From: Pyxidicoccus trucidator
GTDB taxonomy: Bacteria; Myxococcota; Myxococcia; Myxococcales; Myxococcaceae
DNA: 64,000 nt
Assembly (NCBI RefSeq): GCF_010894435.1
Contig: NZ_JAAIXZ010000003.1
Location: 434,001 to 498,000 of the forward strand
Reading direction: 5' to 3'
Below, piece after piece: positions 20,399 through 37,456 of the stretch. Below the pieces are notes generated by a model. The model was not told the origin of the DNA, searched no databases, and saw only the letters and a list, made by a program, of their open reading frames with translations. The number at the start of each line of letters is the position of its first letter. Within the stretch, counting starts at the first letter, position 1. The position numbers were made by a program, and so were the translations under genes.

Positions 20399-20404
20399 GG
20401 CCCC

Positions 20405-21226: not shown

Positions 21227-22497
21227 GCCTGTTCACCTCCGCCTCGGGCGAGCGCCGGCTGGCGCTGCGCGCGGGGCTCTTCGTGGCGGCGGGGCTGGCC
21301 GTCGCGGGCGTGGTGGTCTTCTTCATCGGCCAGGAGTCGCGCCTCTTCGAGCGGCAGGCCGTGTACCGGGCCTACTTCAGCAACGTGCAGGGGCTGAACG
21401 ACGAGTCCCCGGTGTGGCTCGGCGGCCTGAAGGTGGGGAAGGTGACGGGCATCTACTTCTCGCCGGACCCGAATGACCCCCGGCTGGAGGTCCGGTTCCA
21501 GGTGTCCATGAGGTACACGGACCGCGTGCGAGGGGACTCGGTGGCGCAGCTCGCGAGCATGGGCGTGCTGGGGGACAAGGCGGTGGACATCTCGCTGGGC
21601 AGTCCCACGGCGCCGCCGGTGGAGCCGGGCGGGGCGCTGAAGTCGTCAGCGGGTGGGGACCTCTCGTCGCTGCTGAATGGGGCGGGGCAGGTGATGGAGA
21701 ACTCGATTGCCATCAGCAAGACGCTGCGGGTGGCGGTGGAATCGTACGCGGACCCCGCGCTGGCGAAGGACGTGGCGCGCGGCATGTCATCGCTGCGGGC
21801 GCTGCTGGAGGAGGTGGAGAAGGGCGACGGCGTGCTGCACGCGCTCATCTACGACAAGGCCGCCGGGCGCGAGGTGCGCACGCTGCTGGCAAATGCGTCT
21901 CAGGCGGCGGTGCGGGTGGACGGCGCGGTGGGGCACCTGGAGGCGCTGCTGCGCGAGGTGCGCTCGGGCGACGGCACGGCGCACGCGCTCATCTACGGTG
22001 ACGAGGGTGCGACGGCGCTGCGCGAGCTGGGCGCGGCGGCGGGGCAACTGGCGGGGCTCATCGACGACGCGAAGAAGAGCCCGAATGGAGCGGTGCACCA
22101 GCTGGTGTACGGCGACGCGAGCGGCATGTTCGCGGACCTGGGCAGCGCGGCGGAGAACCTCAAGACGATTACGGCCACCGTGGCCAAGGGCGATGGCACG
22201 GTGGGCGGGCTCATCAGCGACCCGACGGTGTACGAGGACCTGCGCGAGGTGCTGGGGAACGTGAAGCGCAACCGCATCCTCCGCGCGCTGGTGCGGTTCT
22301 CGGTGAGCAACCGCGAGGACCTGGAGAAGATTGGCGAGCCGCAGAAGGAGGAGAAGCCCGTGGCCGGGAGTCCCGCGGCACCACCGGCGGCGAAGGTGGC
22401 TCCGGCGGTGCCGGCTGGAGGGCAGCAGGCACCGGCTCCTGCTTCGGCGACTCCGCCCTCCGCGGCGGTGGCTCCTGCGACGCCTCCGTCGCCGTAG
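21223..22497 (+). CDS. mlaD: MlaD family MCE-domain lipid-binding protein
   Basis: 424 residues. One N-terminal membrane helix (about 14-34) is followed by the MCE/MlaD domain (about 40-130) with YFSNVQGLNDESPVWLGGLKVGKV. A long helical region (about 140-370) contains repeated segments of the form GDGxxHALIYD/G (at about 205, 248 and 290), probably a needle-like coiled assembly. The C-terminus is a Pro/Ala-rich tail. MCE hexamers carry lipids across the periplasm. The helical extension is far longer than that of E. coli MlaD and resembles the bridging types such as PqiB or YebT in purpose. The gene ends 3 bp from the convergent TetR gene. Confidence 0.92.
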   Translation: MSLFTSASGERRLALRAGLFVAAGLAVAGVVVFFIGQESRLFERQAVYRAYFSNVQGLNDESPVWLGGLKVGKVTGIYFSPDPNDPRLEVRFQVSMRYTDRVRGDSVAQLASMGVLGDKAVDISLGSPTAPPVEPGGALKSSAGGDLSSLLNGAGQVMENSIAISKTLRVAVESYADPALAKDVARGMSSLRALLEEVEKGDGVLHALIYDKAAGREVRTLLANASQAAVRVDGAVGHLEALLREVRSGDGTAHALIYGDEGATALRELGAAAGQLAGLIDDAKKSPNGAVHQLVYGDASGMFADLGSAAENLKTITATVAKGDGTVGGLISDPTVYEDLREVLGNVKRNRILRALVRFSVSNREDLEKIGEPQKEEKPVAGSPAAPPAAKVAPAVPAGGQQAPAPASATPPSAAVAPATPPSP

Positions 22498-22500
22498 CCG

Positions 22501-23088
22501 CTACTTCGCCCCCAGCCCCAGCAGGACGAGCGCCCACACGCCTTCGAACGCCTTCGGCATCCCAGCGTCTCCCCACTCCGCCGCGTGCGCGGGGTTGTGG
22601 AAGCGCGTCGTCGCATCGAACACCGCCCGCGCCGCCGCCGTCGGGTCCGCCACCGTGAACTCTCCTCGCGCCACCCCATCCGTGATGATGCGCGTGAGCT
22701 GCCCCGTCAGCGAGGCCACATGCGCGGCAATCACCTCGCGCGCGTTCGCGACGAGCGCCTGGTACGTGGCGAACAGCTCCGGGTCATCCAGCGCCTTGCT
22801 CCGCTTGGCCGCAACCAACCCGTCGAACCAGCGGCGCAGGCGCTCCGGCGCCGGGCCCTCCGCCTCGGCAATCTCGGCGAGCGGCTCGGAGATGCGCCCG
22901 AGCCATTGCTCCGCCACCGCGTCACGCAGCGCCGCCTTGCTCGGGAAGTGTCGGTAGACACTGCCGTGGCTCACTCCGAGCGCACGGGCGACGTCGACCA
23001 CCGTCGCCTTGCCAGGACCGAAGCGGCGCAGCACGTCCTCCGCCGCTTCCAGGATTCGCTCGGGAGTGAGGATTGCTTCCGTCATCAT
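22501..23088 (-). CDS. TetR family transcriptional regulator
   Basis: 195 residues. The N-terminal HTH (about 8-55) reads RILEAAEDVLRRFGPGKATVVDVARALGVSHGSVYRHFPSKAAL, the classic TetR pattern. The C-terminal helical domain would bind a small ligand. It overlaps the stop of the aldo/keto reductase gene by 4 bp (23085-23088) and so is co-transcribed with it. It probably represses that operon and is induced by a substrate of the enzyme. The second Met (23085) is an alternative start. Confidence 0.93.
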   Translation of the reverse strand: MMTEAILTPERILEAAEDVLRRFGPGKATVVDVARALGVSHGSVYRHFPSKAALRDAVAEQWLGRISEPLAEIAEAEGPAPERLRRWFDGLVAAKRSKALDDPELFATYQALVANAREVIAAHVASLTGQLTRIITDGVARGEFTVADPTAAARAVFDATTRFHNPAHAAEWGDAGMPKAFEGVWALVLLGLGAK

Positions 23089-24098
23089 GCAGAAGTGCTC
23101 CGGCCACGCTCGCTGTCGAGCATCGCCATCTGGTGCTTGTCGTACCGCTCACCCGCCACCGCCTCCGGCGGCACCGCGCGCTCGATGCGCGCCAGGTCCT
23201 CCGCCGTCAGCTCCACCTGGAGCGCTCCCAGCGCCTCGGTGAGCCTGTCGCGCCGCCGCGCTCCCACGAGCGGGATGATGTTCTCCCCCCGTGACAGCAC
23301 CCACGCGATGGCCACCTGCGCCACCGTCACTCCCTTCGACTCCGCGATGCCGCGCAGCGCCTCCACCAGCTTCAGGTTCCGCTCCAGGTTGTCTCCCTGG
23401 AACCGGGGGCTGTAGTTGCGGAAGTCCCCCTGCGCGCCCGAGCGCTCCTTCGACCAGTGGCCGCTCAGCAGCCCGCGCGACAGCACGCCGTACGCCGTCA
23501 CCGCGACGCCCAGCTCCTTGCACGCCGGGAGGATGTCGGACTCGATGCCGCGCGAGAACAGCGAGTACTCAATCTGCAGGTCCGCCACCGGGTGCACCTT
23601 GTGCGCGCGGCGCAGCGTGTCCGCGCTGGCCTCGGACAGGCCCACGTGCCGGACGTACCCGGCCTTCACCAGGTCCGAGATGGCGCCCACCGTGTCTTCA
23701 ATCGGCACGTTCGGGTCCACCCGCGCGGGGCGGTACACGTCCACGTAGTCCGTGCCCAGCCGGCGCAGCGTGTACGCCAGGAAGTTCTTCACCGCCACGG
23801 GGCGCGTGTCGTAGCCCAGCCAGTCCCCCTTCGGGCCTCGCAGCGCGCCGAACTTCACGCTGATGTGCGCGCGCTCGCGGGCCCGGCCCCGGAGGGCGTC
23901 ACGAATCAGCAATTCGTTGGCGCCCATGCCGTAGAAGTCGCCCGTGTCGAGCAGGGTGATGCCCGCGTCCAGCGCGGCCTGGAGGGTGGCGATGCTCTCC
24001 GCCTCGTTCGTCGGGCCGTAGAGGTCCGACATTCCCATACAGCCAAGGCCGAGCGCCGAGACGCGAGGGCCGGTGGAACCAAGTGTGCGAGTTTTCAT
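23085..24098 (-). CDS. Aldo/keto reductase
   Basis: 337 residues from the ATG at 24098, which has a strong GGAGG 5 nt upstream; the earlier Met at 24143 would add an unlikely tail. It has the AKR start TRTLGSTGPRVSALGLGCMGMSDLYG, with catalytic Asp51 and Tyr56 in LLDTGDFYGMGANE and Lys82. At the position of the usual catalytic His the sequence reads VDVYRPARVDPN, so His is replaced, as in one known subfamily. The NADPH site is near the C-terminus (NIIPLVGARRRDRL). It reduces carbonyls in the cytoplasm. First gene of an operon with tetR. Confidence 0.92.
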   Translation of the reverse strand: MKTRTLGSTGPRVSALGLGCMGMSDLYGPTNEAESIATLQAALDAGITLLDTGDFYGMGANELLIRDALRGRARERAHISVKFGALRGPKGDWLGYDTRPVAVKNFLAYTLRRLGTDYVDVYRPARVDPNVPIEDTVGAISDLVKAGYVRHVGLSEASADTLRRAHKVHPVADLQIEYSLFSRGIESDILPACKELGVAVTAYGVLSRGLLSGHWSKERSGAQGDFRNYSPRFQGDNLERNLKLVEALRGIAESKGVTVAQVAIAWVLSRGENIIPLVGARRRDRLTEALGALQVELTAEDLARIERAVPPEAVAGERYDKHQMAMLDSERGRSTSA

Positions 24099-24127
24099 GA
24101 CGTCCTCCAGTGGGGTGCAGCCACCCT

Positions 24128-24156
24128 TGTATGTAGAACGCACTGACAGATTTCAA
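24128..24156 (-). promoter_or_regulatory. Possible promoter of the aldo/keto reductase-tetR operon
   Basis: Reading the minus strand, TTGAAA (24156-24151) is followed 17 bp later by CATACA (24133-24128), about 30 bp before the start codon, in a locally AT-rich stretch. The -10 is a poor match; TACATA at 15-bp spacing is the alternative. Confidence 0.3.
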
Positions 24157-24162
24157 TATTTG

Positions 24163-25797
24163 TTACTTGTCCGTCTCTGGGACTTCTAGTCTATCCAGTT
24201 TTTCACGGTGTGTAAGACGCATGAGCCGCGAAGCCTTCGATGCGAGTCCGGCGGGGGGCGCCACCCTGAGGAGGAAGGCGTCCCGGCTGCCCTGGGGCTC
24301 GCTGCCCGTGACGAGCGCGCCCTCGGTGTAGCCCGCCACCAGGGCATTGCCGCACGCGTCCACGGCCAGGCCCGCGACGTGGTCGTCCAGAGGCGTCCCC
24401 CGCTGCCACACCCCCAGCAGCAGGCCCTTCGCGTCGAAGCGCAGCAAGAACACATCCCTGCCGCCCTGGTGGGTGAAGCCGGGGAAGCTGCCCAGGGTGT
24501 CGCCAGCGACGTAGAGGTCACCGTTGGGCGCGCGCGCCAGCGCGGTGGCCAGCTCACTGCGCGGGGTGCCCACCTGCCGCAGCCAGCGCACGTCGCCGGA
24601 GTCCGGCTCCAGCAACGCGAGGAAGACGTCGACTTCCCCCACGACGGGCACATCGGGCTCCAGCGCCAGCTGGCTGGAGCCCGCCAGCAGCAGCTCGCCC
24701 TCCGGCGTCAGCAGCAGCTCGTCCGCCTCGGTGCCGGCGGGCGCGAGGAGCGTCGTCCAGCGGGGCGTCCCCTCCACCGCGTCCAGGCGGCGGACGAAGG
24801 CGCCGCCGGGCCCCTCGTCGTCGGAGAAGAACCTGAACCCGGAGGTGAACACGGCCTCGCCGTCGGCCGTGAGCGCGAGGCCGGTCAGTCGGTCCGGGTT
24901 GTCAATGAGCTGGGAGCGCACCCGCCAGTCCGGCGACAGGGGGCCCTCGGCCGGCTGGAGGAACCGGGCCACGAAGCCATTCTCCGCGTCCAGCATCACG
25001 CGGTTCTGGACGAACAAGTCATCGTAGCCGGCGACCACCACATGGCCCGCGGAGTCCACCGCCACCTTCAAGGGATGCTGGGGGCGCTCATCGCCGTGCT
25101 GCAGGACGCTCAGCGTGTGGCCCTCGCCCGCCAGCTCCATGAGGAAGACGTCGAACTGGCCGCCCTGGGTGTGGCCCTCCAGCGTGCCGGTGGTGCGCCC
25201 CACCACCCGCACCGTGCCGCGCTCCCGGCCACTCACCACGTGCTCCGCCGTGTCCGTCCCCGGCGTGTTGATGTCCCTCCGCCAGAGGAGTCCCCCATTG
25301 GCGGCATACCGGCGCACCACCGCACGCGAGTCACCCGACGGCTCGATATTGGTCTCGCCAATGCGGCCTCCCGAGTACCCGGTGGTGTAGATGTCGCCGT
25401 CCTCGGAGACCCAGACGGACAGCGTCTCGTCGGCGCCCGCCGTTCCATCCTGATGGTCTCCCCGCCACGGCGAGGCACAGGTCACCGGGCCTGCATCCGT
25501 CTGGCCAGCGTCGTCGCCGCCGTCCACGCCGGCATCCACCTCGCCACCAGCATCGGCGCCGGCATCCACGCCCGCATCCACCTCGCCACCAGCATCGGTG
25601 CCGGCATCCACGCCCGCATCCACCTCGCCGGCGTCGTCCGTGTCACTCCCACTGTCAACAGGGTCCACCAGTCCCGGAGGAGGCGAGCTGGCACAGCCCG
25701 CGCCGAGCACCAGCAAGACGATGACCGCCAGCACCTGCCCGCGCCACGCGACGGTGACGCCAGGGACAGGCCCGTTGTTCTCATCGCTCACCCGCAC
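24163..25797 (-). CDS. Repeat-propeller lipoprotein with Asp-Ala-Gly linker (module copy B)
   Basis: About 544 residues from a GTG at 25797, which has AGGGGGG 6 nt upstream; other in-frame starts at 25791, 25818 and 25845 are possible. Lipobox VLGAGC is followed by an acidic linker of DAG/DAGV repeats (about 40-105) and then an SBBP-type beta-propeller. Its repeats take the form ADETLSVWVSEDGDIYTTGY, NPDRLTGLALTADGEAVFTSG, EADELLLTPEGELLLAGSS and SELATALARAPNGDLYVAGD. It is homologous over its length to the lipoprotein at 30615-31982. It is last in the nine-gene exported cluster. It probably sits on the outer membrane; ligand unknown. Confidence 0.85.
   Translation of the reverse strand: MRVSDENNGPVPGVTVAWRGQVLAVIVLLVLGAGCASSPPPGLVDPVDSGSDTDDAGEVDAGVDAGTDAGGEVDAGVDAGADAGGEVDAGVDGGDDAGQTDAGPVTCASPWRGDHQDGTAGADETLSVWVSEDGDIYTTGYSGGRIGETNIEPSGDSRAVVRRYAANGGLLWRRDINTPGTDTAEHVVSGRERGTVRVVGRTTGTLEGHTQGGQFDVFLMELAGEGHTLSVLQHGDERPQHPLKVAVDSAGHVVVAGYDDLFVQNRVMLDAENGFVARFLQPAEGPLSPDWRVRSQLIDNPDRLTGLALTADGEAVFTSGFRFFSDDEGPGGAFVRRLDAVEGTPRWTTLLAPAGTEADELLLTPEGELLLAGSSQLALEPDVPVVGEVDVFLALLEPDSGDVRWLRQVGTPRSELATALARAPNGDLYVAGDTLGSFPGFTHQGGRDVFLLRFDAKGLLLGVWQRGTPLDDHVAGLAVDACGNALVAGYTEGALVTGSEPQGSRDAFLLRVAPPAGLASKASRLMRLTHREKLDRLEVPETDK
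25532..25629. repeat. 42-bp in-frame tandem repeat in lipoprotein linker
   Basis: A 42-bp unit starting GCATCCACCTCGCC is present twice (25532-25573, 25574-25615; one difference seen) and a third time partially (25616-25629). It encodes 14 residues of the acidic DAG linker, so slippage would change linker length without breaking the frame. Confidence 0.75.
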
Positions 25798-25906
25798 GCG
25801 GCACCCCCCTGCCATCATGGCCTCGCCCATTCCCATATCAGACAAACGCCCGGGGCCAGCTGCCGGCCCCGGGCGCGCGCTGTCTCCTGGGTGGAGCCAG
25901 GCCGCA

Positions 25907-27025
25907 CTACCTGGGCATCAGCTCCTCGGGCACGGAGCGCTGCAGGATGATGCGGTTCATGAACTGCACGTCCTCGTTCTGGTAGCGGGCCGAGCCCACC
26001 AGGAAGCCCTGCGCCACCAGCACGTTGGACACCTGGTCCCGGCTGACGGGCCGCAGGTTGAAGACCTTGCCGAAGTGCGTGGTCCGCTCCACGCTGGTGA
26101 TGCGCTCCGGCGTGCCGTCCTGCCGCAGCAGCTCGTCATCGACCTTCAGGTCCTGCGCGCGAACCATCCGCCCCTCGCTGTTCACCACGGGGTGCTCGTT
26201 GGTCAGCCGCAGCTTGCCGCCGCCCGCGGTGCGGATTTCGTAGAGGACGTGCTCGCTGTTCCGAATCTCCGACGTGTAGCTGTAGACGCGGTTCGGCTGG
26301 AGCTGGAGGTTGTCGAGCGTGGAGTCGGGCGACAGGGTGATGAGGTCCTCACGCTGCTTCTGGATGGCATCGGAGATGGGGACCGAGCCCTCGCTGAACA
26401 GCACCTCCTGGTCCGGCGCGTAGCAGCTCGATTCGCAGTTGGCGACCACGTAGAAGGAGGTGCCCGTGTACAGGGTGTCTCCGCGATAGTCGCCGTTGGT
26501 GTCGCGGTACATGCGGCAGTCGGTGGTGTCGGTGGGGTGGGGATAGAGCGGGGTGCCGGAGCCCGCGGGCAGCGACGTCTCGAACGTCGGATAGATTGGC
26601 CGCACCCGGAGCGTCGTCGTGGGCGCGGGATTCCACTTGAAGAAGTTGATGGTGGGGCCGGTGACCTCCAGGTCCACCTTGACCATGGGCGTCGCCTCAT
26701 ACATCGCGGCCGCGTAGTAGTAGTTCACCTTGTACGCGTGCGCGTTGCCCGAGTACGCCCGGGTGGTGTTGCTCTCGATGTATTCCTTGGCCATCGTGAA
26801 ATCGACGTTGAAGGTCGTGGTGGACAGCACCCACGAGGCCGCGCCTCCGGTGTTGGTCAGCAGGCCGCACTTGCGTGCCCACTCGGCACGGACGACGGCC
26901 TGGCTCGGCGTCAGGCTGTCGTCGTTGCAGCGCCACTCCTGCTGGTTCTGCGCACCTGCCACCGCGGGAAGCAGCGCGATGGCGGCCGCGCCTCCCAGGA
27001 CGATTCTGGATACAGACTTGGACAT
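25907..27025 (-). CDS. Secreted Hint-domain protein, paralogue 1
   Basis: 372 residues. A Sec signal peptide (cleavage after about AVAGA, residue 25) is followed by a conserved N-terminal domain of about 170 residues starting EWRCNDDSLTPSQAVVRAEWARKCGL. The C-terminal part is a Hint (hedgehog/intein) fold: Cys201 in NCESSCYAPDQEVLFSEG, the TxxH motif at Thr275-His278 in RLTNEHPVVNSEG, LKVDDELLRQDG, and the closing FNLRPVSRDQVSNVLVAQGFLVG. The intein-type His-Asn end is absent; the chain continues with SARYQNEDVQFMNRII to the end. By analogy with hedgehog it may cleave itself N-terminal to Cys201. AAGGGG precedes the ATG. Second Hint gene of module copy B. Confidence 0.82.
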   Translation of the reverse strand: MSKSVSRIVLGGAAAIALLPAVAGAQNQQEWRCNDDSLTPSQAVVRAEWARKCGLLTNTGGAASWVLSTTTFNVDFTMAKEYIESNTTRAYSGNAHAYKVNYYYAAAMYEATPMVKVDLEVTGPTINFFKWNPAPTTTLRVRPIYPTFETSLPAGSGTPLYPHPTDTTDCRMYRDTNGDYRGDTLYTGTSFYVVANCESSCYAPDQEVLFSEGSVPISDAIQKQREDLITLSPDSTLDNLQLQPNRVYSYTSEIRNSEHVLYEIRTAGGGKLRLTNEHPVVNSEGRMVRAQDLKVDDELLRQDGTPERITSVERTTHFGKVFNLRPVSRDQVSNVLVAQGFLVGSARYQNEDVQFMNRIILQRSVPEELMPR

Positions 27026-27145
27026 GGTTTTCCCCTTCGGACTCGTGGACAGACTGCCCCCCTCCTGCTTCCGCGGACTGCAGTGGCGTCCACCGGACCT
27101 GCTCCGGCGGGCGCCACCCGGGCCTCCCTCGGGGTCGGAGGAGGC

Positions 27146-28336
27146 CTACTCCGGCAGCACCTCCGCCGGGATGGCACGTTGCAGCAGGAGCCGGTTGATG
27201 TGCTCCACGTCCTCGTTCTGGAAGCGGGCCGAGCCCACCAGGTAGCCCTGTGCCACCAGCACGTTGGACACCGCGTCGCGCGACACGGGCCTGACGTTGA
27301 AGACCTTTCCGTAGTGCGTCGTCTTCCGCACCTCCACGATGCGCTCCGGCGTGCCGTCCACGCGCAGCAGCTCGTCGCCGGCCACCAGCGTCTCCGCCTT
27401 CACCAGCCGGCCCTCGCTGGTGACGACGGGGTGCTCATTGGTCACCCGCAGCAGCCCCCCCGTCTCGGTGGAGACCTCGTAGAGGACGTGCTCGCTGTCC
27501 CGCGCGTCGGTGGTGTAGCTGGACACGGTGTTCCGCTGGAGCTTCAGGTCGTCCAGGGTGGCGTCCGGGCCGAGCGTCATCAGGTCCTCGCGGCCCTCCC
27601 GCGCTGCTTCCTGGACGGTGGCCTCGCCGTCGCTGAACAGCAGCCGCTGGTCCGGCGCGTAGCAACCCGACTCGCAGTAGGCGACGACGTAGAAGGGCCG
27701 CTCGGTCGTCTCGGTGACGAAGTAGCAGTTGTCCTTGCCGATTTCGGGTTCGCGCAGCGAGGGATACTCCCCGTCACACACGTAGCGCTGCGTCACCGTC
27801 TGCCAGAGCCCGGTGCCGTTCGGGGTGCTGTAGAGGCGGCAGTCGTTGGTGTTGGTGGGATGCGGGAAGAGCTGGGTGCCGCTGCCGGCGACGCCGGTGC
27901 TCTCGAAGGTGGGGTAGAGCGCCCGCACGCGCGGGACGGTGTGGGACCACTTCCAGTAGCCCGCCGTGCTGCCGCTGGTCTCCTGGAACACGGAGAAGAG
28001 GGGCGTCGCTTCGTAGAGCGAGCGGGCGTGGTAGTAGTTCACGTTGTAGTGGTGGGCGTTGCCCGTGTACGCGCGGCTCGTGGTGAGCTCCCGGTACTCC
28101 TTCACCGGCCCGAAGCTGGTGTCGAAGGCGGCGCCCGAGCTGTACCAGGACGACGCGCCGGCGGTGTTCCGCAAGAGGCCGCACCGGCGGGCCCACTCGG
28201 AGCGGGCAATGGCCTGGTCCGGCGTCAGGTAGTCGCTGCCGCACCGGTTCTGCTGCGTGTCCTCCGCCAGGGCGGCGGACGGCAGCAGGGCCAGGGCGGC
28301 GAGCGTGAGGCGCGAGGCGAGGCGGGGAAGGCGCAT
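27146..28336 (-). CDS. Secreted Hint-domain protein, paralogue 2
   Basis: 396 residues from the ATG at 28336, with GGAG 10 nt upstream; the Met at 28357 has no ribosome site. Signal peptide to about residue 24. The N-terminal domain (NRCGSDYLTPDQAIARSEWARRCGL) matches the other three paralogues but has an insertion of roughly 25 residues around 182-212 with two extra Cys. Hint residues: Cys225 in YCESGCYAPDQRLLFSDG, TxxH at Thr299-His302 and LVAGDELLRVDG, ending GYLVGSARFQNED. First Hint gene of module copy B, starting 34 bp after the CxxCH lipoprotein gene. Confidence 0.82.
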   Translation of the reverse strand: MRLPRLASRLTLAALALLPSAALAEDTQQNRCGSDYLTPDQAIARSEWARRCGLLRNTAGASSWYSSGAAFDTSFGPVKEYRELTTSRAYTGNAHHYNVNYYHARSLYEATPLFSVFQETSGSTAGYWKWSHTVPRVRALYPTFESTGVAGSGTQLFPHPTNTNDCRLYSTPNGTGLWQTVTQRYVCDGEYPSLREPEIGKDNCYFVTETTERPFYVVAYCESGCYAPDQRLLFSDGEATVQEAAREGREDLMTLGPDATLDDLKLQRNTVSSYTTDARDSEHVLYEVSTETGGLLRVTNEHPVVTSEGRLVKAETLVAGDELLRVDGTPERIVEVRKTTHYGKVFNVRPVSRDAVSNVLVAQGYLVGSARFQNEDVEHINRLLLQRAIPAEVLPE

Positions 28337-28370
28337 GGGGTGGTGGCTCCGTGGCATGGAGGGGTCCGGA

Positions 28371-30497
28371 CTACTTCGTCTTCGCCATCAGGGTTCCGGG
28401 GCCGCGGTTCTCGGTCCACACGACGTGGTCCCCGCCCACCGCCACGCTGGTGAGGTTGAACGTCGGCGTGAAGACCGGCACGGGTGCGCCGCCGCCCACG
28501 GGGACGCGCAGGACGTTGCCCGGCAGCCCGTCCTCCGCCAGGTACACGTGGGTGCCGTCACCGGCCAGCCCGGTGATGTTGGCGCGCGTCAGCAGGGTGG
28601 AGACGGAGCCTCCTCCGCCCTTGGCCATCTTCCGGACGGCGTTGCCCTCCTGCCAGTAGACGCTGCTGTCATCCACCGTGATGCGCCCCGTCACGTTGGT
28701 GCGCTGGGTGATGACGTTGGAGGCGGCGCCGCCCTGGATGGACATCTTCCGGAGCGAGCCTCCCTCGGTCCAGAACAGGTTCGTCCCGTCCGTGGCGATG
28801 CCGCCGAGGCCGGTGAGGCCCGTGGCCAGCGTGGACATGGCGCCGCCGGCGACGGGCATCTTGAGGATGGAGCCGCCTGCCTCCGTCCAGTAGACGTGGG
28901 CGCCGTCCGTGGCGATGGCGAGGGGCTCGGGACGGTTGAAGGCCAGCAGCTGCTCGCTGCCGCTGTCGAGCGAGGCCCTCATCACCACGCCGCCCGCGCG
29001 GCGCTCCACCCAGTAGGCGAAGCGGCCATCCGAGGCCGAGCCGGCCAGGTTGAAGCGCGAGGGGGTGGTGAGCGGATGCTCCGTGTTGAGGAAGCCCTCC
29101 ATCACCTGCTTGCGGAAGGGGATGAACGTGCCGGTGAGCGCGGAGGAGATGAAGAAGCGGTTGCCGTCCGGGCCCTGCTCGGTGAACTCCACGTTGTGGA
29201 TGAAGCCCGCGGCGCTGGGGAAGCGCATCGTGCTGCCGTCCGGCAGGGTGCCCACGTCCACGCTGTCGCTGCGCTGGTGGCAGCCGCTGCACGAGAGTGC
29301 CTGCGCGCGGGCGACAATCTGGGTGGGCGTCAGGTCGCTGCCAATCATGTCCAACCTGTCCTGGATGTCGCTCCGGAAGCCGCTGGGGCCCGCGCCGAAG
29401 CGCTGCACGTACTCGTCCACGGCGTTGAAGGTGCTCGAGTCGCCCTGGGCGGCGTTGAACTGGTTCGGCACCGAGTAGTTGAAGGTGTTGATGTTGTTGG
29501 TGGCCAGCGCGGGCACCTGGTTGAGGAAGTGCTCGCGGAAGGCGGCGGCCTGCGGGTGCGTGGAGGCGGGGTTGAAGAGCTCGCCGAACGGGTTGGTCTT
29601 CACCGTCGAGGGGGCGAACTTCAGCGTGCACACCCCACCCGGGCACTGCCGCTGGAGCTTGAACTCCTTGAGCACCCACAGGGGCTCGATGAACACGTTG
29701 AAGCGCACCTGGCCGGCGCTGTCCGGGTTGAAGCCGTAGTTGTTGATGTGGAAGACCGGAGAGAAGCCGGGCAGGCCCGTGAAGTAGAAGTCGCGCAGGG
29801 CGGTGCCCCGGTCCGCGACATTCTTCGCGCTCAAGTCCCGCCAGAAGGACTGGACGGGACGGCAGCCGTCGATGCCCAGGTCGGGACGGGGGTTGGGCAG
29901 CGACGCCTCGAAGATGAGGAAGGCGCGCCCCGGGCCCCCCGACGTCTTTCCGAAGATGACGCGGTACTCCCCGCAGTGGGCGCCGCTGGTGGGCGCCAGG
30001 TCGAAGCGGTTGTAGAGGCCGATGGCCGAGTACGAGTTGAGGGTGGTGGGGCTGGCGGGGTTCGCCTGGGCGCCCTCCTGGGTCCTGCAGCCATTGGGAA
30101 AGCCGTTGAGCGAGCCGCCGTTGTCAGTGCAGTGCGCGCTCGGCTGCAGGTCCGGCTGGCCGGGAGAGGGGTTCTGCGTGTCCCAGAGCTGGCGGAAGAG
30201 CTGGGTGGCGTTGAGGCCGGTGCCACCATTCTGCGCGACGAGCTGCCCGAGGACGCCGGAGAGTGTGAAGTGCGCGAGGATGGCCGCGTCCGTCACCACC
30301 ACGGACTTGCGGCCGTCCACCGTCTGCGGCGCCAGGGTCGCCAGGCCCTGCTCGCGGGAGGCCGAGGCCACGCCGATGCCTCCACGCTCGGAGTAGGGCG
30401 CGGACGAGGACTCCGCTTCCGCCGCTTCGGGCGGCTGACAGCCCACCCACATGACGGTTCCCGCGGCCAGCAGGGCGCGCGACCAGTGCTTGAACAT
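28371..30497 (-). CDS. CxxCH (haem c-type) and YWTD-like propeller lipoprotein, module copy B
   Basis: 708 residues. Signal peptide with lipobox WVGC (Cys20). Residues about 45-470 form a large domain with several paired cysteines and one CSGCH motif (403-407), the covalent haem-attachment pattern of cytochromes c. From about 480 the chain becomes a beta-propeller of repeats such as HVYWTEAGGSILKMPVAGG, NLFWTEGGSLRKMSIQGG and SVYWQEGNAVRKMAKGGG. It aligns from end to end with the protein at 35348-37456. AAGGAAGG precedes the ATG. The role is unknown; haem binding rests on the one motif. It is first in module copy B, followed by two Hint genes. Confidence 0.85.
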   Translation of the reverse strand: MFKHWSRALLAAGTVMWVGCQPPEAAEAESSSAPYSERGGIGVASASREQGLATLAPQTVDGRKSVVVTDAAILAHFTLSGVLGQLVAQNGGTGLNATQLFRQLWDTQNPSPGQPDLQPSAHCTDNGGSLNGFPNGCRTQEGAQANPASPTTLNSYSAIGLYNRFDLAPTSGAHCGEYRVIFGKTSGGPGRAFLIFEASLPNPRPDLGIDGCRPVQSFWRDLSAKNVADRGTALRDFYFTGLPGFSPVFHINNYGFNPDSAGQVRFNVFIEPLWVLKEFKLQRQCPGGVCTLKFAPSTVKTNPFGELFNPASTHPQAAAFREHFLNQVPALATNNINTFNYSVPNQFNAAQGDSSTFNAVDEYVQRFGAGPSGFRSDIQDRLDMIGSDLTPTQIVARAQALSCSGCHQRSDSVDVGTLPDGSTMRFPSAAGFIHNVEFTEQGPDGNRFFISSALTGTFIPFRKQVMEGFLNTEHPLTTPSRFNLAGSASDGRFAYWVERRAGGVVMRASLDSGSEQLLAFNRPEPLAIATDGAHVYWTEAGGSILKMPVAGGAMSTLATGLTGLGGIATDGTNLFWTEGGSLRKMSIQGGAASNVITQRTNVTGRITVDDSSVYWQEGNAVRKMAKGGGGSVSTLLTRANITGLAGDGTHVYLAEDGLPGNVLRVPVGGGAPVPVFTPTFNLTSVAVGGDHVVWTENRGPGTLMAKTK

Positions 30498-30614
30498 TCA
30501 GGCCTTCCTTCGTCGGGGAGTCGGAGTTGGAGTCGACAGTGCTGCTGGGCGTGGACGGAGCGCGGGGCATCGCGGCGGGAGCCGGCTTCGGCTCCCGCGG
30601 CATGGGGCAGGGCG

Positions 30615-31982
30615 CTAGAGCGGGGGCTGCTCGGCGACGGTCACCTTGAGCAGGAACATGTCCCGGCTGCCCAGGTTCTGGGTGTTCGGAACGAGCGAGC
30701 CCTCGGTGGAGCCCGCGAGGAAGACCCTGCCGCACGGGTCCACCCACAGGGCCGTTGCCAGGTCATTGCCGGGCGTGCCCCGCTGCCACACGCCCGTCGG
30801 CCGCCCGTCCGCGCTGAAGCGCAGCACGAACAGGTCCCTTCCTCCCTGGTTCGTGAAGCCGGGGAAGCTGCCCGTGGTGATGCCAGCGACGTAGACGTCA
30901 CCGTTGGGCGCGCGGGCCATCGCGGTGGCCAGCTCGCTGCCCTGGGTGCCCACCATCCGGAGCCACCGCAGGGCGCCGGTGTCCGGCTCCAGCAGGGCGA
31001 GGAAGACATCCACCTCGCCGACGACGGGTACGTCGGGCTCCAGGGGCATCTGGCTGGAGCCCGCCAGGAGCAGCTCGTTGTTCGGCGTCACCAGCAGCTC
31101 GTCCGCCTCGGTGGCCACGGGGGCGATGGAGGTCGTCCAGCGGACGGCGCCGGTGGCCGGGTCCAGCGAGCGGACGAAGGCGCCGTTGGGGCCCTCCGGG
31201 TCGGGGAAGAACTTGAAGCCGGAGGCGAAGAGGTGCTCCGCGCCGGGGCTGGCCGTGAAGCCCGTCAGCCGGTCCGGGTTGTCCACCTGCGTGGACTGGA
31301 ACTTCCAGGCCGCGGTCGATGCGAAGTTGTTGCCGTCCCGGTTGATGCGGGTGACGAAGCCGTTCTCCGAGTCCAGCACCACGCGGTTCTGGACGAACAG
31401 GTCCTCGTACCCGGCGACGAACACGCTGCCGTCGGGATGGACGGCCACCTTCAGCGGGTGCTGCGGGCGCTCGTTGCCCTGCTGCACGGCCCGCTTCTTG
31501 TTGCCCTTGGCATCCAGCTGCATCACGAACAGGTCGAACTGCCCCCGGTTGGTGAAGTTCTCCAGCGCCCCCGAGGTGCGTCCCGCCACCGTCAGCAGCT
31601 CCAGGCTCTCGTTGCCGACGATGTGCTCCGCGGTGTCCGTTCCGGCCGTGTCCACGACCTCGGTCCGGTCCAGGTTGCCGTTGGCGAGGAAGCGCAGCAC
31701 CACCGCCCGCGAGTTGCCCGAGGGCTCGATGTTCGTCTGCCCCAGGGTGCCGCGGTCATACCCCGCGAGGTAGACGGCGCCCTTGCTGCTGGCCCAGACG
31801 GAGAGCGCCTCGTCCGCGCCGGAGCTGCCGCCCTGGTAGTCACGCGTCCAGGTCGTGGTGCACGAGCCCGCCGGCTCTTCCGGCTCATCGTCCCCGGTGC
31901 AGCCCGCTGCCCCCAGCACGCCCACGGCCAGCGCCAGGCTCAGTCCCCTGCGCGCGCCTCGGCTCTCTCTGCGTTGCGACAC
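30615..31982 (-). CDS. Repeat-propeller lipoprotein (module copy A)
   Basis: 455 residues from a GTG at 31982 with AGGTGG upstream; an ATG at 32012 has no ribosome site. Basic signal peptide with lipobox LGAAGC, a short acidic linker (TGDDEPEEP), then an SBBP-like propeller: ADEALSVWASSKGAVYLAGY, HPLKVAVHPDGSVFVAGYED, EADELLVTPNNELLLAGSS, SELATAMARAPNGDVYVAG and DLATALWVDPCGRVFLAGS. The segment EPDVPVVGEVDVFLALLEPD is identical in the paralogue at 24163-25797, which has a much longer linker. It closes module copy A. Probably exposed at the outer membrane. Confidence 0.85.
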   Translation of the reverse strand: MSQRRESRGARRGLSLALAVGVLGAAGCTGDDEPEEPAGSCTTTWTRDYQGGSSGADEALSVWASSKGAVYLAGYDRGTLGQTNIEPSGNSRAVVLRFLANGNLDRTEVVDTAGTDTAEHIVGNESLELLTVAGRTSGALENFTNRGQFDLFVMQLDAKGNKKRAVQQGNERPQHPLKVAVHPDGSVFVAGYEDLFVQNRVVLDSENGFVTRINRDGNNFASTAAWKFQSTQVDNPDRLTGFTASPGAEHLFASGFKFFPDPEGPNGAFVRSLDPATGAVRWTTSIAPVATEADELLVTPNNELLLAGSSQMPLEPDVPVVGEVDVFLALLEPDTGALRWLRMVGTQGSELATAMARAPNGDVYVAGITTGSFPGFTNQGGRDLFVLRFSADGRPTGVWQRGTPGNDLATALWVDPCGRVFLAGSTEGSLVPNTQNLGSRDMFLLKVTVAEQPPL

Positions 31983-32058
31983 TCGCCACCACCTGTTGTT
32001 TGTGCGGTGCATGGGGTATCCATGCAATGAAAGACTCATCTGGGCGAAGCCAGTCAGC

Positions 32059-32844
32059 TCAGGGCGAGGCCGCGGCCCGGGCCCGCGCCTGCATGTCGAT
32101 GCGAATCTGCTCTTCCTGGGCGCTGCGGCGCTGGTCCTCCTTCGCCATCCACGCCACCAGGGGTTCCATGTTGGTTCCCCGGGCGCGGTCGCCGAGGGCG
32201 AGCGCCTTGTCCGTGTCGTGCTCGGCCAGCAGGCGGTACATCTCCATCTTTCCGCCCGCGAGCATGTAGCGGCGCTCGGTGTCCTGGGCGCCGAAGATGT
32301 TCTGCTGGAGGATGACGTTCTCGGTGTGCGCGAGCAGCTCTCCACGCGCGGGGTTGTCCTTCCACGCGAGCGCGGCCTTGAAGTAGTCCACCTGCATCAG
32401 CCGCTCGTACTGCTCCTGGGGCTGCACCTCGCCGCGACCCGGGTCCATCAGGTCGTCGGCCATGGCCTTCATCATCTCCGCGTCGGAGAGCAGCCGCCGG
32501 TACTCGTCGCGACCCTGCTCATCCAGCAGCACGTGCTTGTGGTAGTGCATGAACAGGCCCAGCCGCTTGTTGTCCTCGAGCACCTGGGCAATCAGCTCGC
32601 GCGGCATGAGCGGCGGTCGCTCGGTGCCCGCCTCCATCGCCTGTATCGCCTCGCGCTCCTCGGGTGTCTTCGGTGCGGGCACCGCCGCGAGGGGCGCCGG
32701 CTTCGGTTCGGCCGGTGCGGCCACGGGGCGCTCGGCCACCGGTGGCGCGGCCTCCGGGCTCTCGCTCCCCGCCAGCATCCACGCAGTCACCAGCCCCACC
32801 AGCAGGGCGACTCCCAGGACGACCCACGAACGGCTGCGCTTCAT
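32059..32844 (-). CDS. Membrane-anchored hypothetical protein
   Basis: 261 residues from the ATG at 32844 (GGGAGAGG upstream). One N-terminal membrane helix (about 7-23), then a Pro/Ala/Lys linker (about 28-62), then a helical periplasmic domain with NKRLGLFMHYHKHVLLDEQG, MMKAMADDLMDPG and LMQVDYFKAALAWKDNPARG. No catalytic motif recognised. It is the only gene of the 24-37 kb cluster without a paralogue here, sitting inside module copy A between its second Hint gene and its propeller lipoprotein. Confidence 0.72.
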   Translation of the reverse strand: MKRSRSWVVLGVALLVGLVTAWMLAGSESPEAAPPVAERPVAAPAEPKPAPLAAVPAPKTPEEREAIQAMEAGTERPPLMPRELIAQVLEDNKRLGLFMHYHKHVLLDEQGRDEYRRLLSDAEMMKAMADDLMDPGRGEVQPQEQYERLMQVDYFKAALAWKDNPARGELLAHTENVILQQNIFGAQDTERRYMLAGGKMEMYRLLAEHDTDKALALGDRARGTNMEPLVAWMAKEDQRRSAQEEQIRIDMQARARAAASP

Positions 32845-32942
32845 GGTGTTCCTCTCCCGTGCTTCCGGTAAACGGGCCCGGGGCCCACGATGGGCCCTCG
32901 GGCGCACTGCGCTTGTCTTTGGGTGGCGTACCGCGCGGAGGG

Positions 32943-34055
32943 CTACTCCGGGAGCAGCTCGCCGGGGATGCCGCGGAACAGCAGGATGCGGTTCATGTAG
33001 CCGATGTCGTCGTTCTGGAAGCGAGCGGAGCCGACGAGGTAGCCCTGGGCGACGAGGATGTTGGAGACCTGGTCCCTCGACTCGGGCTTGAGGTTGTAGA
33101 CCTTGCCGAAGTGGGTGCTCTTCTCCACGGAGACGATGGCGTCGGGGGTGCCGTCCTGGCGCAGCAGCTCGTCACCGGCCTGGAGCGTCTGGGCCTGCAC
33201 GAGGCGGCCCTCGCGGGTGATGACGGGGTGCTCGTTGGTGACCTTCAGCTCGCCGCCGGACGCGGTGCGCACGCTGTAGAGGACGTGCTCGCTGTCACGC
33301 GTCTCGGAGGTGTAGCTGTACACCTTGCCCTCGGTGAGCTGGAGGTTGTCCAGCGTGGCGTCGGGGCCGAGGGTGATGACGTCCTCGCGGCCTTCCTTCA
33401 TCGCGTCGAGGATGCTCTTGTCGCCGTCGCTGAACAGCACGCGCTGGTCCGGCGCGTAGCAGGACGACTCACAGTAGGCGACCACGAAGAAGCTGCCCGT
33501 GACGGGCGTTCCGGTGCCGTTCGGGTTGTTGAAGAGGCGGCACTCGGTGGTGCTGGTCGGATGCGGGAAGAGCTGGGCGCCGGTGCCCACCGCGGAGGTG
33601 TTCTCGAAGGTGGGGTACAGCGGCCGCACGCGCGAGGCGGTGTGGTTCCACTTGAAGTAGTTGGTCGTCGCTCCGGTGGTCTCCTTCGCCACGGTGAAGA
33701 GGGGGCTCGCGTCGAAGCTGCCCCACGCGTGGTAGAAGTTGACGTTCCACTGGAACGAGCTGCCCGAGTAGGACTTGTCACCCAGCGGGTTCACCGCGGT
33801 GTTGACCTCCTTGTAGTCCTTGGCGAACTGGAAGGTCTCGTCGAAGGCGCGCGAGGAGAGGAACCAGGCGTCGGGGTTGAGGACGTTGCGGGTGAGGCCG
33901 CAGCGCCGGGCCCACTCGATGCGGGCGGTGGCCTGGGCCGGGGTGAGGCTGTCGGTGCTGCAGCGCCACTCCTGCAGCGGCTCCGCGAGGGCCGACAGCG
34001 GCAGGAGGGAGAGCGCCGCTACCGCGGCAAGGGGACGCGAAATCGATGAGGTCAT
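32943..34055 (-). CDS. Secreted Hint-domain protein, paralogue 3
   Basis: 370 residues. Signal peptide to about residue 24 (LLPLSALA). N-terminal domain starting EWRCSTDSLTPAQATARIEWARRCGL. Hint domain with Cys199 in YCESSCYAPDQRVLFSDG, TxxH at Thr273-His276 and LQAGDELLRQDG, ending GYLVGSARFQNDDIGYMNR. From about residue 200 to the end it is nearly identical to paralogue 4, also at DNA level, while the N-terminal halves differ clearly. That pattern suggests gene conversion of the Hint half. AAGGAG precedes the ATG. Second Hint gene of module copy A. Confidence 0.82.
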   Translation of the reverse strand: MTSSISRPLAAVAALSLLPLSALAEPLQEWRCSTDSLTPAQATARIEWARRCGLTRNVLNPDAWFLSSRAFDETFQFAKDYKEVNTAVNPLGDKSYSGSSFQWNVNFYHAWGSFDASPLFTVAKETTGATTNYFKWNHTASRVRPLYPTFENTSAVGTGAQLFPHPTSTTECRLFNNPNGTGTPVTGSFFVVAYCESSCYAPDQRVLFSDGDKSILDAMKEGREDVITLGPDATLDNLQLTEGKVYSYTSETRDSEHVLYSVRTASGGELKVTNEHPVITREGRLVQAQTLQAGDELLRQDGTPDAIVSVEKSTHFGKVYNLKPESRDQVSNILVAQGYLVGSARFQNDDIGYMNRILLFRGIPGELLPE

Positions 34056-34209
34056 CCTGTTTGCTCCTTGGGGTTCAGGGACACAGTCAGACAGCGCTCC
34101 AGGGACAGCGACGGGAGCGGGCAGGTCGCCGCGCGAAGCGCGACGGGGGTGTGGTGGGCCACGGGGCCATGTCGCCCCGGGCCCTGGACCTGCCCGTCCC
34201 GGGGGGGCA

Positions 34210-35307
34210 CTAACGCGGCAGCGCGTCCTCGGGGACGCCGCGGAACAGCAGCACGCGGTTCATGTAGTCGACGTCGTCGTTCTGGAAGCGGGCCGAGCCG
34301 ACGAGGTAGCCCTGGGCGACGAGGATGTTGGAGACCTGGTCCCTCGCCATGGGCTTGAGGTTGTAGACCTTGCCGAAGTGGCTGCTCTTCTCCACGGAGA
34401 CGACGGCGTCCGGGGTGCCGTCCTGGCGCAGCAGCTCGTCACCGGCCTGGAGCGTCTGGGCCTGCACGAGGACACCCTCGCTGGTGACGACGGGGTGCTC
34501 GTTGGTGACCTTCAGCTCGCCGCCGGACGCGGTGCGCACGCTGTAGATGACGTGCTCGCTGTCGCGCGTCTCCGTGGTGTAGCTGTAGACCTTGCCCTCG
34601 GTGAGCTGGAGGTTGTCCAGCGTGGCGTCGGGGCTGAGGGTGACGATGTCCTCGCGGCCCTGCTTCATCGCGTCGAGGATGTTCTGCTCGCCGCCGCTGA
34701 AGAGGATGCGCTGCTCCGGCGTGTAGCAGGACGATTCACAGTAGGCGATGACGTAGAAGTTGCTCGTCCAGACGTTGGTGCCCGTCGTGTCCGTGTACAG
34801 GTTGCAGTTCGCCAGGGTGGGGTGCGGGAAGAGCTGCGTGCCGCTGCCGGCCACCGGGCTGTTCTCGAAGGACGGGTAGAGCGTGCGGACGCGGCTGGTG
34901 GAGTGAGACCACTTGAAGTAGCCCGCGGTGACGCCGCCCGGCTCGGCGGCCACCGTGTACATGGGCGTGTTGTCGTACATCGAAAACGCGTGGTAGTAGT
35001 TGACGTTGTACTGGTGGAGGTTGCCGGTCCACGCGCGGTTGGTGTTGAACTCCTTGTACTCCTTGGCCCAGTCGAAGTTGGTGTCGAAGGCCTTCGAGGA
35101 GGAGAACCAGGAGCCCGGGCCCGCCGGGTTGAGGTTGGTGGTGAGGCCGCACTTGCGGGACCACTCGGCGCGCAGGGCGGCCTGGGCGGGGATGAGGCTG
35201 TCGACGCTGCAGCGCCACTCCTGCATCGGCTCGGCGACCGCGGCGGTGGCGGGCAGGAGGGTGAGGACGGCGGCCTTCAGGAAGGTGCTGGGGGTGGGCT
35301 TGCGCAT
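34210..35307 (-). CDS. Secreted Hint-domain protein, paralogue 4
   Basis: 365 residues. Signal peptide to about residue 25 (LLPATAAVA). N-terminal domain EWRCSVDSLIPAQAALRAEWSRKCGL. Hint domain with Cys194 in YCESSCYTPEQRILFSGG, TxxH at Thr268-His271, LQAGDELLRQDG and the closing GYLVGSARFQNDDVDYMNR. As in the other copies the tail of about 25 residues after the Hint fold ends in a conserved LFRGVPEDALPR-like stretch. First Hint gene of module copy A, 40 bp after the CxxCH lipoprotein gene. Confidence 0.82.
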   Translation of the reverse strand: MRKPTPSTFLKAAVLTLLPATAAVAEPMQEWRCSVDSLIPAQAALRAEWSRKCGLTTNLNPAGPGSWFSSSKAFDTNFDWAKEYKEFNTNRAWTGNLHQYNVNYYHAFSMYDNTPMYTVAAEPGGVTAGYFKWSHSTSRVRTLYPSFENSPVAGSGTQLFPHPTLANCNLYTDTTGTNVWTSNFYVIAYCESSCYTPEQRILFSGGEQNILDAMKQGREDIVTLSPDATLDNLQLTEGKVYSYTTETRDSEHVIYSVRTASGGELKVTNEHPVVTSEGVLVQAQTLQAGDELLRQDGTPDAVVSVEKSSHFGKVYNLKPMARDQVSNILVAQGYLVGSARFQNDDVDYMNRVLLFRGVPEDALPR

Positions 35308-35347
35308 GCTTCGTGTCTCCGTTTTTCCGGGTGGGACGACTCGCGGG

Positions 35348-37456
35348 CTACTTCACCTTCGCCATGACGACGCCGGGGTTGCGGTTCTCCGTCCAGACGA
35401 CGTGGCCACCTCCCGCGGAGATGCTGTTGATGTTGAAGGCCGCCGCGAAGGTGGCCGTGGGAGCGCCGCCGGCGAGCGGGAAGGCCAGGACGTTGCCGGG
35501 GTTCAGGTCCTCGGCCACCCACAGGCGCGTGCCGTCGCTGGCCAGGCCGGTGATGGCGGCCTGCGAGATGAACAGGGTGACGGCGCCGCCGGCCTTGGGC
35601 ATGCGCTGGATGGTGGTGCCCTCCTGCCAGAAGAGGTTGGCGCCATCCACGGTGAGGCGGCCCGTCATCCCGACGCGGCCGGTGATGAGCGGGGTGGCGG
35701 CGCCGCCGCCCACGGCCATCCGGACGATGCCGCCGTTCTGCGTGAAGAACAGGTTCGTGCCGTCGGTGGCGATGCCGCCGAGGCCGGTGAGGCCGGTGAT
35801 GAGGGTGGAGATGGTGCCGCCGTTGACGGACACCTTGAGGATGGTGCCGGCGGCCTCCGTCCAGTAGACGCTGACACCGTCCGTGGCGACGGCCATGGGC
35901 TCGGGGCGGTTGAAGGCGAGCACGCTCTCACTGCCGCTGTCGAGCGAGGCCTTCATCACCACGCCCGCCGGGCGCCGCTCCACCCAGTAGCCGAAGCGGC
36001 CGTCCGTGGCCGAGCCCGACATGTCGAAGCGCGAGACGGGGGTGAGGGGGTGGTCCGCGTTGAGGAAGTCCTCCACCACCTGCTTGCGGAAGGGGATGAA
36101 CGTGTTGGTGAGCGCGGAGGAGACGGCGAAGCGGTTGCCGTCCGGGCCGGCCTGGAGGTTCTCCGAGCTGTGCACGAAGCCCGCCGAGTTGGGGAAGGAG
36201 AAGCCGCCCACGGGCGCGCTGTTGCTGCGCTCGTGGCAGCCGCCGCACGAGAGCGCCTGGGCGCGGGCGACCACCTGGTTGGGCGTCAGGGGGCTGCCGA
36301 TGCGGGTCAGCTCCGTCTGGATGGCGGTGCGGAAGGTGCTGGCGCCCGAGCCGAACTGCGCCTGGTAGTCGTCCTCGACGCCGAAGGACTGCGCGTCGCT
36401 CTGGGCGGAGTTGAACTGGTCCGGCACCGAGTAGTTGAAGGTGTTGACGTTGGGGACGGCCAGCTCCTCCACCTGGGTGATGAAGTGCGCGCGGAAGCCG
36501 GCGGCCTGCGGGTGCGTGGAGGTCGGGTTGAAGAGCCGCCCGGCCGGATTGCCCTTCACCGTCACCGGGGCGAACTTCAGCGTGCACGCCCCGCCCGGGC
36601 ACTGCCGCTGGAGCTTGAACTCCTTCAGCATCCACGGGCCGTTGATGAACATGTTGACGCGCACCTGGCCGACGCCCGCCGGGTTGAACCCGTAGTTGTT
36701 GATGTGGAGGACGGGGGAGAAGCCGGGCAGGCCGGTGAAGTAGAAGTCGCGCAGGGCGGTGGCGCGGTCGGCGACAGTCTTGGTGCTCAAGTCCCGCCAG
36801 AAGGACTGGACGGGACGGCAGCCGTCGATGCCCAGGTCGGGGCGGGGGTTGGGGAGGGTGGCCTCGAAGATGATGAAGTTGCGCCCGCCGCCGCCGCCCG
36901 TCTTCCCGAAGACGACGCGGTACTCACCGCAGTCCGCGCCGTTGGCGGGCGCCAGGTCGAAGCGGTTGTAGAGGCCGATGGCCGAGTACGAGTTGATGTT
37001 GGTGATGCTGCCAGGGTTCGCCTGGGCGCCTTCCGAGGGCCGGCAGCCGTTGGGGAAGCCGTTGAGCAGGCCGGTGTTGTCGTTGCAGTGCGCGCTCGGC
37101 TGCAGGTCCGCCTGGCCGGTGGCGGGGTTCTGCGTGTCCCAGAGCTGGCGGAAGAGCTGGGTGGTGTTGAGGCCGGCGCCGCCATTCTGGGCGACGAGCT
37201 GCCCGAGCACGTTGGTGAGGGTGAAGTTGGCGAGGATGGCCGCCTCCGTCACCACCACGGAGCGACGGGCATCCACCGTCTGCGGCGACAGCGAGCCCAG
37301 TCCCTGCTCGCGTGAGCGGTTCGTGACGCCCATCTCGCCGCGGTCGGAGATGGGTGTCTTGTCACCAGCGGCTGGCTCATCCAGGTCCTGGCCCTGACAG
37401 CCCACCCATAGCAATGCACCAGCCGCGAGTGCGGCCCTCAGAGAGGTCTTCGACAT
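35348..37456 (-). CDS. CxxCH (haem c-type) and YWTD-like propeller lipoprotein, module copy A
   Basis: 702 residues from the ATG at 37456 (AAGGGA upstream; the Met at 37489 is less likely). Lipobox WVGC (Cys20). The domain at about 45-465 carries CGGCH at 404-408. Long identical blocks with the copy at 28371-30497 include LGIDGCRPVQSFWRDLS and TALRDFYFTGLPGFSPV. The C-terminal propeller repeats are YWTEAAGTILKVSVNGG, LFFTQNGGIVRMAVGGG and LFWQEGTTIQRMPKAGG. It is the first gene of the nine-gene minus-strand cluster; the cluster promoter presumably lies in the AT-rich gap upstream. Confidence 0.85.
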   Translation of the reverse strand: MSKTSLRAALAAGALLWVGCQGQDLDEPAAGDKTPISDRGEMGVTNRSREQGLGSLSPQTVDARRSVVVTEAAILANFTLTNVLGQLVAQNGGAGLNTTQLFRQLWDTQNPATGQADLQPSAHCNDNTGLLNGFPNGCRPSEGAQANPGSITNINSYSAIGLYNRFDLAPANGADCGEYRVVFGKTGGGGGRNFIIFEATLPNPRPDLGIDGCRPVQSFWRDLSTKTVADRATALRDFYFTGLPGFSPVLHINNYGFNPAGVGQVRVNMFINGPWMLKEFKLQRQCPGGACTLKFAPVTVKGNPAGRLFNPTSTHPQAAGFRAHFITQVEELAVPNVNTFNYSVPDQFNSAQSDAQSFGVEDDYQAQFGSGASTFRTAIQTELTRIGSPLTPNQVVARAQALSCGGCHERSNSAPVGGFSFPNSAGFVHSSENLQAGPDGNRFAVSSALTNTFIPFRKQVVEDFLNADHPLTPVSRFDMSGSATDGRFGYWVERRPAGVVMKASLDSGSESVLAFNRPEPMAVATDGVSVYWTEAAGTILKVSVNGGTISTLITGLTGLGGIATDGTNLFFTQNGGIVRMAVGGGAATPLITGRVGMTGRLTVDGANLFWQEGTTIQRMPKAGGAVTLFISQAAITGLASDGTRLWVAEDLNPGNVLAFPLAGGAPTATFAAAFNINSISAGGGHVVWTENRNPGVVMAKVK

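Follow-up and report, generated by a model that had tools for sequence, protein, structure and literature searches.

A duplicated block of genes for exported Hint proteins and lipoproteins in Pyxidicoccus trucidator: a candidate self-processing system and its partner genes

What do the products of nine consecutive genes for exported proteins do in a myxobacterium, and do they act together? Here, we address this question for a block of minus-strand open reading frames (ORFs) in a 64,000-nucleotide stretch (hereafter the window) of the 12.67 Mb genome of Pyxidicoccus trucidator (G000; contig NZ_JAAIXZ010000003.1, positions 434,001 to 498,000). The block extends from position 24163 to 37456, or to 37489 if an alternative upstream ATG of its first gene, which is also open, is used. 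From first to last on the minus strand, the genes follow the order F1-Hint-Hint-X-F4-F1-Hint-Hint-F4, i.e., two diverged copies of a set of F1 (a CxxCH-propeller lipoprotein), two Hint proteins and F4 (an SBBP-propeller lipoprotein), with gene X in the first copy. The original prediction, made without database searches, had placed nine consecutive genes in a repeated four-gene order at these very positions. The ORFs and the alignments of the copies confirm it: F1a and F1b are 67% identical over 709 columns, which is nearly their full length, the mature parts of F4a and F4b are 60% identical over 420 columns, and the other three Hint proteins share 59-68% identity with Hint1a. We consider it rather probable that the cluster encodes a system of secreted proteins that matures by self-processing of Hint precursors, with X, proteases and propeller lipoproteins as further components, and the set in the window appears to represent a derived version of a broader Hint-X-protease/F4 cluster.

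X, which had initially been set aside as unrelated to its neighbours, accompanies the Hint genes more constantly than any other partner. Of 193 Myxococcota genomes, 30 carry X, with 38 matches in total; each of these has a Hint match no more than 3 kb away, and the 30 genomes all belong to the 61 (of 195 in the phylum) with matches to the Hint profile. The order Hint-X-F4 is also present in Polyangium fumosum of the order Polyangiales (X match E 4e-32). X combines an N-terminal anchor that by eye looks uncleaved, a linker rich in Pro and Ala, and a conserved domain that looks helical. On plasmid pBdHAGR2 of Bdellovibrio sp. HAGR004, a 911-aa PKD/thrombospondin lipoprotein (locus L105, 6871-10325) ends in the same type of Hint domain, and the gene directly after it encodes a membrane-anchored, helical-looking protein. 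This gene may be a distant X, but the resemblance is suggestive only: a comparison of profiles yielded P 0.0017 with a probability of 15.6%, versus 0.014 for the best of ten control genes, and a search of the plasmid record with the X profile gave no match, an empty result of a kind that is no evidence of absence.

The neighbourhood of X reveals further recurrent partners. We counted these within 10 kb at 34 X loci, which comprise 37 of the 38 X matches plus one in Polyangium and are partly related, not independent, so that the counts overstate the number of events: Hint was present in 34, a secreted protease in 27 (S8 in 25, M4 in two), C6 in 21, C5 in 20, F4 in 18 and F1 in four. The S8 protease carries the serine motif at 22 loci and was recognised by Pfam between Hint and X at three more (L085-L087), where the subtilases are diverged; at L050 and L084, the place after X that belongs to the S8 protease at other loci is taken by an M4 thermolysin with PPC domains. 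The next profiled gene after X on the same strand is F4 in 19 of the 38 cases, S8 in 13 and M4 in two, and there is none in four. What is conserved as a unit is Hint-X with a secreted protease and/or F4, often accompanied by the HEAT protein C5 and the secreted protein C6. Hint, S8 protease and X also adjoin each other at L086 and L087, in very small Myxococcota genomes of 1.7-1.8 Mb. Hint clusters of other composition occur as well. Those at L041, L043 and L044 contain a second, divergent Hint type (block B TQHH/TQNH) beside the main Hint family and include C4 proteins that are subtilase-like by eye only, and L052 and L053 are clusters with no X match, the former beside M4-like and, below cut-off, M1-like peptidases.

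For C6, no relative was recognised. C5 consists of HEAT repeats preceded by an N-terminal beta part and is possibly lipid-carrier-like. In large lipid transfer proteins, Vitellogenin_N comprises a beta barrel and a helical arch; all seven C5 rows compared with this Pfam family (PF01347) matched at E 0.01 or better, the one row displayed doing so in the helical part, and the 50 rows displayed by VIA-align likewise span this part only. In the Foldseek ranking, designed HEAT repeats came first and MTP 18th; sequence matches in the PDB were to HEAT-type repeats, to which a single-sequence search added lipovitellin (E 0.0067). The beta part, modelled at a predicted local distance difference test (pLDDT) score below 50, had only below-cut-off Pfam matches, to other families.

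It could be argued that such a neighbourhood is a shared secretion or regulation island, in which Hint and X form a pair and the other genes hitch-hike. We regard this as the competing explanation to be taken most seriously, albeit as rather unlikely. F1, F4, C5, C6 and the protease do vary among loci, and the N-terminal domain of F1 and C5 are widespread (98 of 195 and 134 of 193 genomes, respectively), many of these genomes having no Hint match at all. However, the next profiled gene after X encodes F4 or a protease in 34 of 38 cases, and of the 39 C5 matches of at least 750 bits, 32 have a Hint match no further than 10 kb away, as compared with none of the 19 weaker ones tabulated; two still weaker matches outside the table (G063, G091) are exceptions at about 7-8 kb from Hint. 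The better of two C5 matches in the P. trucidator genome is a 215-bit relative on another contig. The claim that the products of the block work together is strengthened by an arrangement and pairing that different genera and, in the case of Hint-X-F4, two orders have in common, but not for the four families as a unit, since F1 is found at only four of the 34 X loci. All four families co-occur in three Corallococcus-group genomes, namely G081, C. praedator (G082) and C. terminator (G090); the F1 domain is widespread without Hint. Among the matches listed for the 195 genomes, only those in these three and in P. trucidator span the whole F1 profile, propeller included.

Self-processing is suggested by the Hint proteins themselves. 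Their architecture is Hedgehog-like: a signal peptide (by eye), a small N-terminal domain (N-domain) with two conserved cysteines (over 18 rows, C28 is invariant and C8 is kept in at least 90%) and a C-terminal Hint domain. Pfam matches to PT-HINT (PF07591) and inteins fall just below the cut-offs, whereas three of the four Hint proteins in the window score above the cut-off of NCBIfam intein_Nterm. In an AlphaFold2 model of Hint2a, based on an 18-row alignment (mean pLDDT 68, Hint part mostly 70-90), residues from about 172 to 322 match inteins, bacterial intein-like domains and Hedgehog. Model residues 175-321 superpose on residues 258-402 of Hedgehog 1at0 (Z 16.2, root-mean-square deviation 2.1, 133 aligned), and the Mtu RecA intein is matched with Z 17.0; model residue 175, the Hint cysteine, falls on Hedgehog residue 258 and intein residue 1. 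Among 78 distinct Hint domains, which are related rather than independent and were retained after removal of stretches below 130 aa, duplicates and short loci, the threonine of the TxxH motif is present in 76, its histidine in 77 and the catalytic-position cysteine (Cys1) in 72, with three gaps and three other residues; two of the former (L035, L037) and two of the latter (L041, L043) look misaligned by eye and do have the cysteine. The His-Asn pair that serves splicing and C-terminal cleavage is found in none of the 78, its first place being taken by G (77) or A (1). No more than 33 residues follow the Hint profile match in any of these domains, and no toxin or sterol-binding domain is C-terminal to it.

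The absence of His-Asn also accords with an unlikely alternative, in which Hint is a degenerate remnant that folds merely as a stable C-terminal cap or binding module of structural surface proteins and performs no cleavage. The orthologues of Hint1b in all three Corallococcus-group genomes point the same way, as their Hint domain is degenerate, with TxxH altered in three of three and a stretch deleted in two of three. Retention of Cys1, T and H across distant relatives argues against a remnant, as does the fact that the Hint parts of Hint1a and Hint2a have been kept alike. The N-domain is joined to two PPC domains in place of Hint in two proteins, and Hint therefore looks exchangeable; N-domains also occur in tandem without Hint (L042). 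A phage origin of the Hint proteins was considered and rejected: the best 20 of 95 matches in a phage collection were mostly terminase large subunits, several of them annotated with inteins (E 0.02), and a scan of viral contigs gave no relative.

For the self-processing system favoured here, we propose that, after export, the Hint cysteine would attack the preceding Ser, Gly or Ala to form a thioester. The N-domain would then leave this bond, either by release or by transfer to a nucleophile (water, thiol, amine or alcohol), and end up free or with a modified C-terminus. X, as a membrane-anchored helical protein, may hold or control the precursor in the periplasm, and the secreted protease of most relatives and the propeller lipoproteins F4 (plus F1 in the window type) may carry out the last steps of maturation or accept the product once it reaches the outer membrane. 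The set in the window would be a twice-copied, derived form that gained F1. We infer cleavage at the Ser/Gly/Ala-Cys junction, the best-supported step, from the conserved residues and the fold; the roles of X, protease, F4 and F1 and the fate of the N-domain are likewise inferred. Processing by Hint domains, as originally envisaged, gains support from the conserved order and pairing, while the surface or matrix assembly tentatively proposed along with it stays conjectural.

Several points weigh against this proposal, in addition to the relatedness of the loci counted. Self-cleavage is deduced from sequence and a model. Structure prediction of the N-domain, a check suggested together with the original prediction, yielded a low-confidence model (block pLDDT about 49-83), and X matches no recognised family in Pfam and no solved relative. 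Hint activity seems dispensable in the Hint1b slot of the three Corallococcus-group genomes, because the domain is degenerate there. A protease was not found at seven X loci (those of the window, of Polyangium and of the three genomes with a matching block, plus L079 and L082 on short contigs), and neither an S8- or M4-type protease nor C5 or C6 adjoins the cluster in the window. The protease appears not to be essential to the set, as none was found in the window cluster, its three matching blocks and the Polyangium locus.

A more specific version of the self-processing proposal is that these genes are a bacterial counterpart of Hedgehog biogenesis, in which the N-domain, once secreted, would pass from the Hint thioester to one particular acceptor (a small molecule, a lipid or a nucleophile on the surface), X would be a dedicated membrane partner, and most relatives would add a secreted protease and C5. 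We put this forward as speculative and on balance improbable; if true, myxobacteria make C-terminally modified extracellular proteins. Myxobacteria are predators, and this lifestyle, together with tandem paralogues that join differing N-domains to one Hint family, could suggest a polymorphic-toxin-like system with N-domains as effectors and X as immunity protein. This is very unlikely given that the window contains four Hint genes but a single X gene, that N-domains are conserved like Hint parts between orthologues (82% and 80%, respectively, for Hint1a and its G081 counterpart) and that no toxin domain follows Hint, unlike in the polymorphic toxins described in the available part of PMC3482391, where Hint precedes a C-terminal toxin domain.

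The duplication itself is old. The entire nine-gene order, X included, recurs in G081 and C. praedator, and in pieces on three contigs of C. terminator; it is thus neither unique to this strain nor due to chance. In trees of the N-domain, F1 and F4, the A copies from the different genomes group apart from the B copies, which shows that the duplication predates the split, or the exchange, of the copies in these genomes. The flanks of the copies in the window, G081 and C. praedator, as far as available, have no gene family in common, and these differing flanks would fit a transfer of the block between genera. With a GC content of 69%, as compared with 70% for the window, the block is not compositionally foreign. 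For the Hint genes, a plain block duplication is not clear, because their N-domains are 58% (Hint1a-Hint1b), 49% (Hint2a-Hint2b) and 53% (Hint1a-Hint2a) identical. The Hint parts of Hint1a and Hint2a were probably homogenised by gene conversion, as at 84% identity they are closer to each other than that of Hint1a is to its G081 orthologue, despite the divergence of their N-domains. N-domain and Hint part evolve separately, and the four Hint proteins of the block, with their separate N-domains and homogenised Hint parts, form a natural set of variants for comparison. Copy B lacks X, for which loss is the simpler reading, since Hint-X-F4 occurs in another order. Outside the block, C. terminator has a fifth Hint gene of the same family (L106, 5177-6334), 1.7 kb from a divergent S8 subtilase gene. 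Contig 28 of the P. trucidator genome carries a lone N-domain ORF of 191 aa (L099, 5498-6070), which is possibly a remnant, as the genome-search match counts two stops within it.

The individual genes and their neighbours are compiled in Table 1. Intergenic gaps among the nine genes are 13-154 bases with the start codons chosen here, which makes transcription as one or few units plausible; promoter and terminator scans gave no candidate scoring above shuffled sequence. No ABC exporter like the one beside the block adjoins it in the available flanks of G081 or C. praedator. The propeller of F1 resembles those of LRP4 (E 5.9e-12). As for the haem motif ascribed to F1, a single CxxCH is present in all 19 aligned F1-domain rows, but no Pfam or NCBIfam cytochrome family matches.

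Table 1 Genes of the block and neighbouring features in the window (export assigned by eye from signal peptides and lipobox-like cysteines)
Feature	Protein	Label	Position	Strand	Description
F1a	P0001		35348..37456	-	Lipoprotein-like; ~450-aa domain with one CxxCH, then YWTD/LRP-like propeller
Hint1a	P0002	A2	34210..35307	-	Signal peptide, N-domain, C-terminal Hint; Hint Cys 194
Hint2a	P0003	A3	32943..34055	-	Signal peptide, N-domain, C-terminal Hint; Hint Cys 199, TxxH 273-276; modelled
X			32059..32844	-	N-terminal membrane anchor, Pro/Ala linker, helical-looking domain
F4a	P0005		30615..32039	-	SBBP-type propeller lipoprotein; start uncertain
F1b	P0006		28371..30497	-	Second F1 copy
Hint1b	P0007	B2	27146..28357	-	Hint Cys 232
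Hint2b	P0008	B3	25907..27025	-	Hint protein
F4b	P0009		24163..25845	-	Second F4 copy; start uncertain
ABC exporter			38026..40245	+	Peptidase-containing, divergent from block; best NCBIfam match NHLM bacteriocin export, below cut-off
Metalloprotease			41928..43112	-	Pappalysin-like M43, a few kb upstream of block
Lipid-transport operon			19589..22497	+	Consecutive MlaE permease, ABC ATPase and MlaD genes
Aldo/keto reductase			23085..24143	-	19 bases past the last gene of the block

How does this system compare with known ones? F4a and F4b match the model of the LipL53 SBBP lipoproteins (NCBIfam NF047494), but with 83.8 and 87.4 bits remain far under its cut-off of 400. PT-HINT, the autoproteolytic Hint of polymorphic toxins, is approached in sequence, as noted above, and differs in being followed by a toxin. 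Inteins and bacterial intein-like domains share the fold; the domains studied here lack both the His-Asn pair and a C-extein. The similarity to Hedgehog/Hog proteins extends to the secreted N-domain and the C-terminal Hint domain of the same fold, and the Cys nucleophile and TxxH required of Hedgehog/Hog proteins (available part of PMC9163320) are kept in most of the domains studied here. However, only 27 residues follow the block-G VGS in Hint2a, which is too short for a sterol-recognition region, a serine stands where Drosophila D303 would fall (at the same distance from TxxH, placed by sequence offset only), and the proteins in the window have no Pfam match to the Hedgehog signalling domain. 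The proteins with an N-domain and no Hint may be likened to those of Caenorhabditis elegans for which Hedgehog-related N-terminal domains alone were reported (PMC1636047, in part).

The closest precedent is a subgroup of bacterial proteins with C-terminal Hint-like domains that Buerglin described in 2008 from Stigmatella, Myxococcus, Reinekea, Photorhabdus, Serratia and Yersinia and termed a further Hint type (PMC2362128); the same paper credits Dassa and Pietrokovski with having noticed them too. According to the available part of that account, its members, e.g., Stigmatella STIAU_1829 and M. xanthus MXAN_6253, have signal peptides in some cases, two conserved upstream cysteines and motifs A and B. 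By this description, the Hint proteins in the window have the same layout. The same part of the account describes no function, partner genes, operon or duplicated block, and our full-text literature searches, whose scope excluded most subscription journals and the supplements of Buerglin, returned no account of Hint partner genes. Thus, the Hint subgroup has been known since 2008, and the partner-gene system is newly recognised. The constant partner X, the recurring secreted protease and the lipoproteins turn these Hint proteins into a testable system, which could show how Hedgehog-type self-processing works outside eukaryotes.

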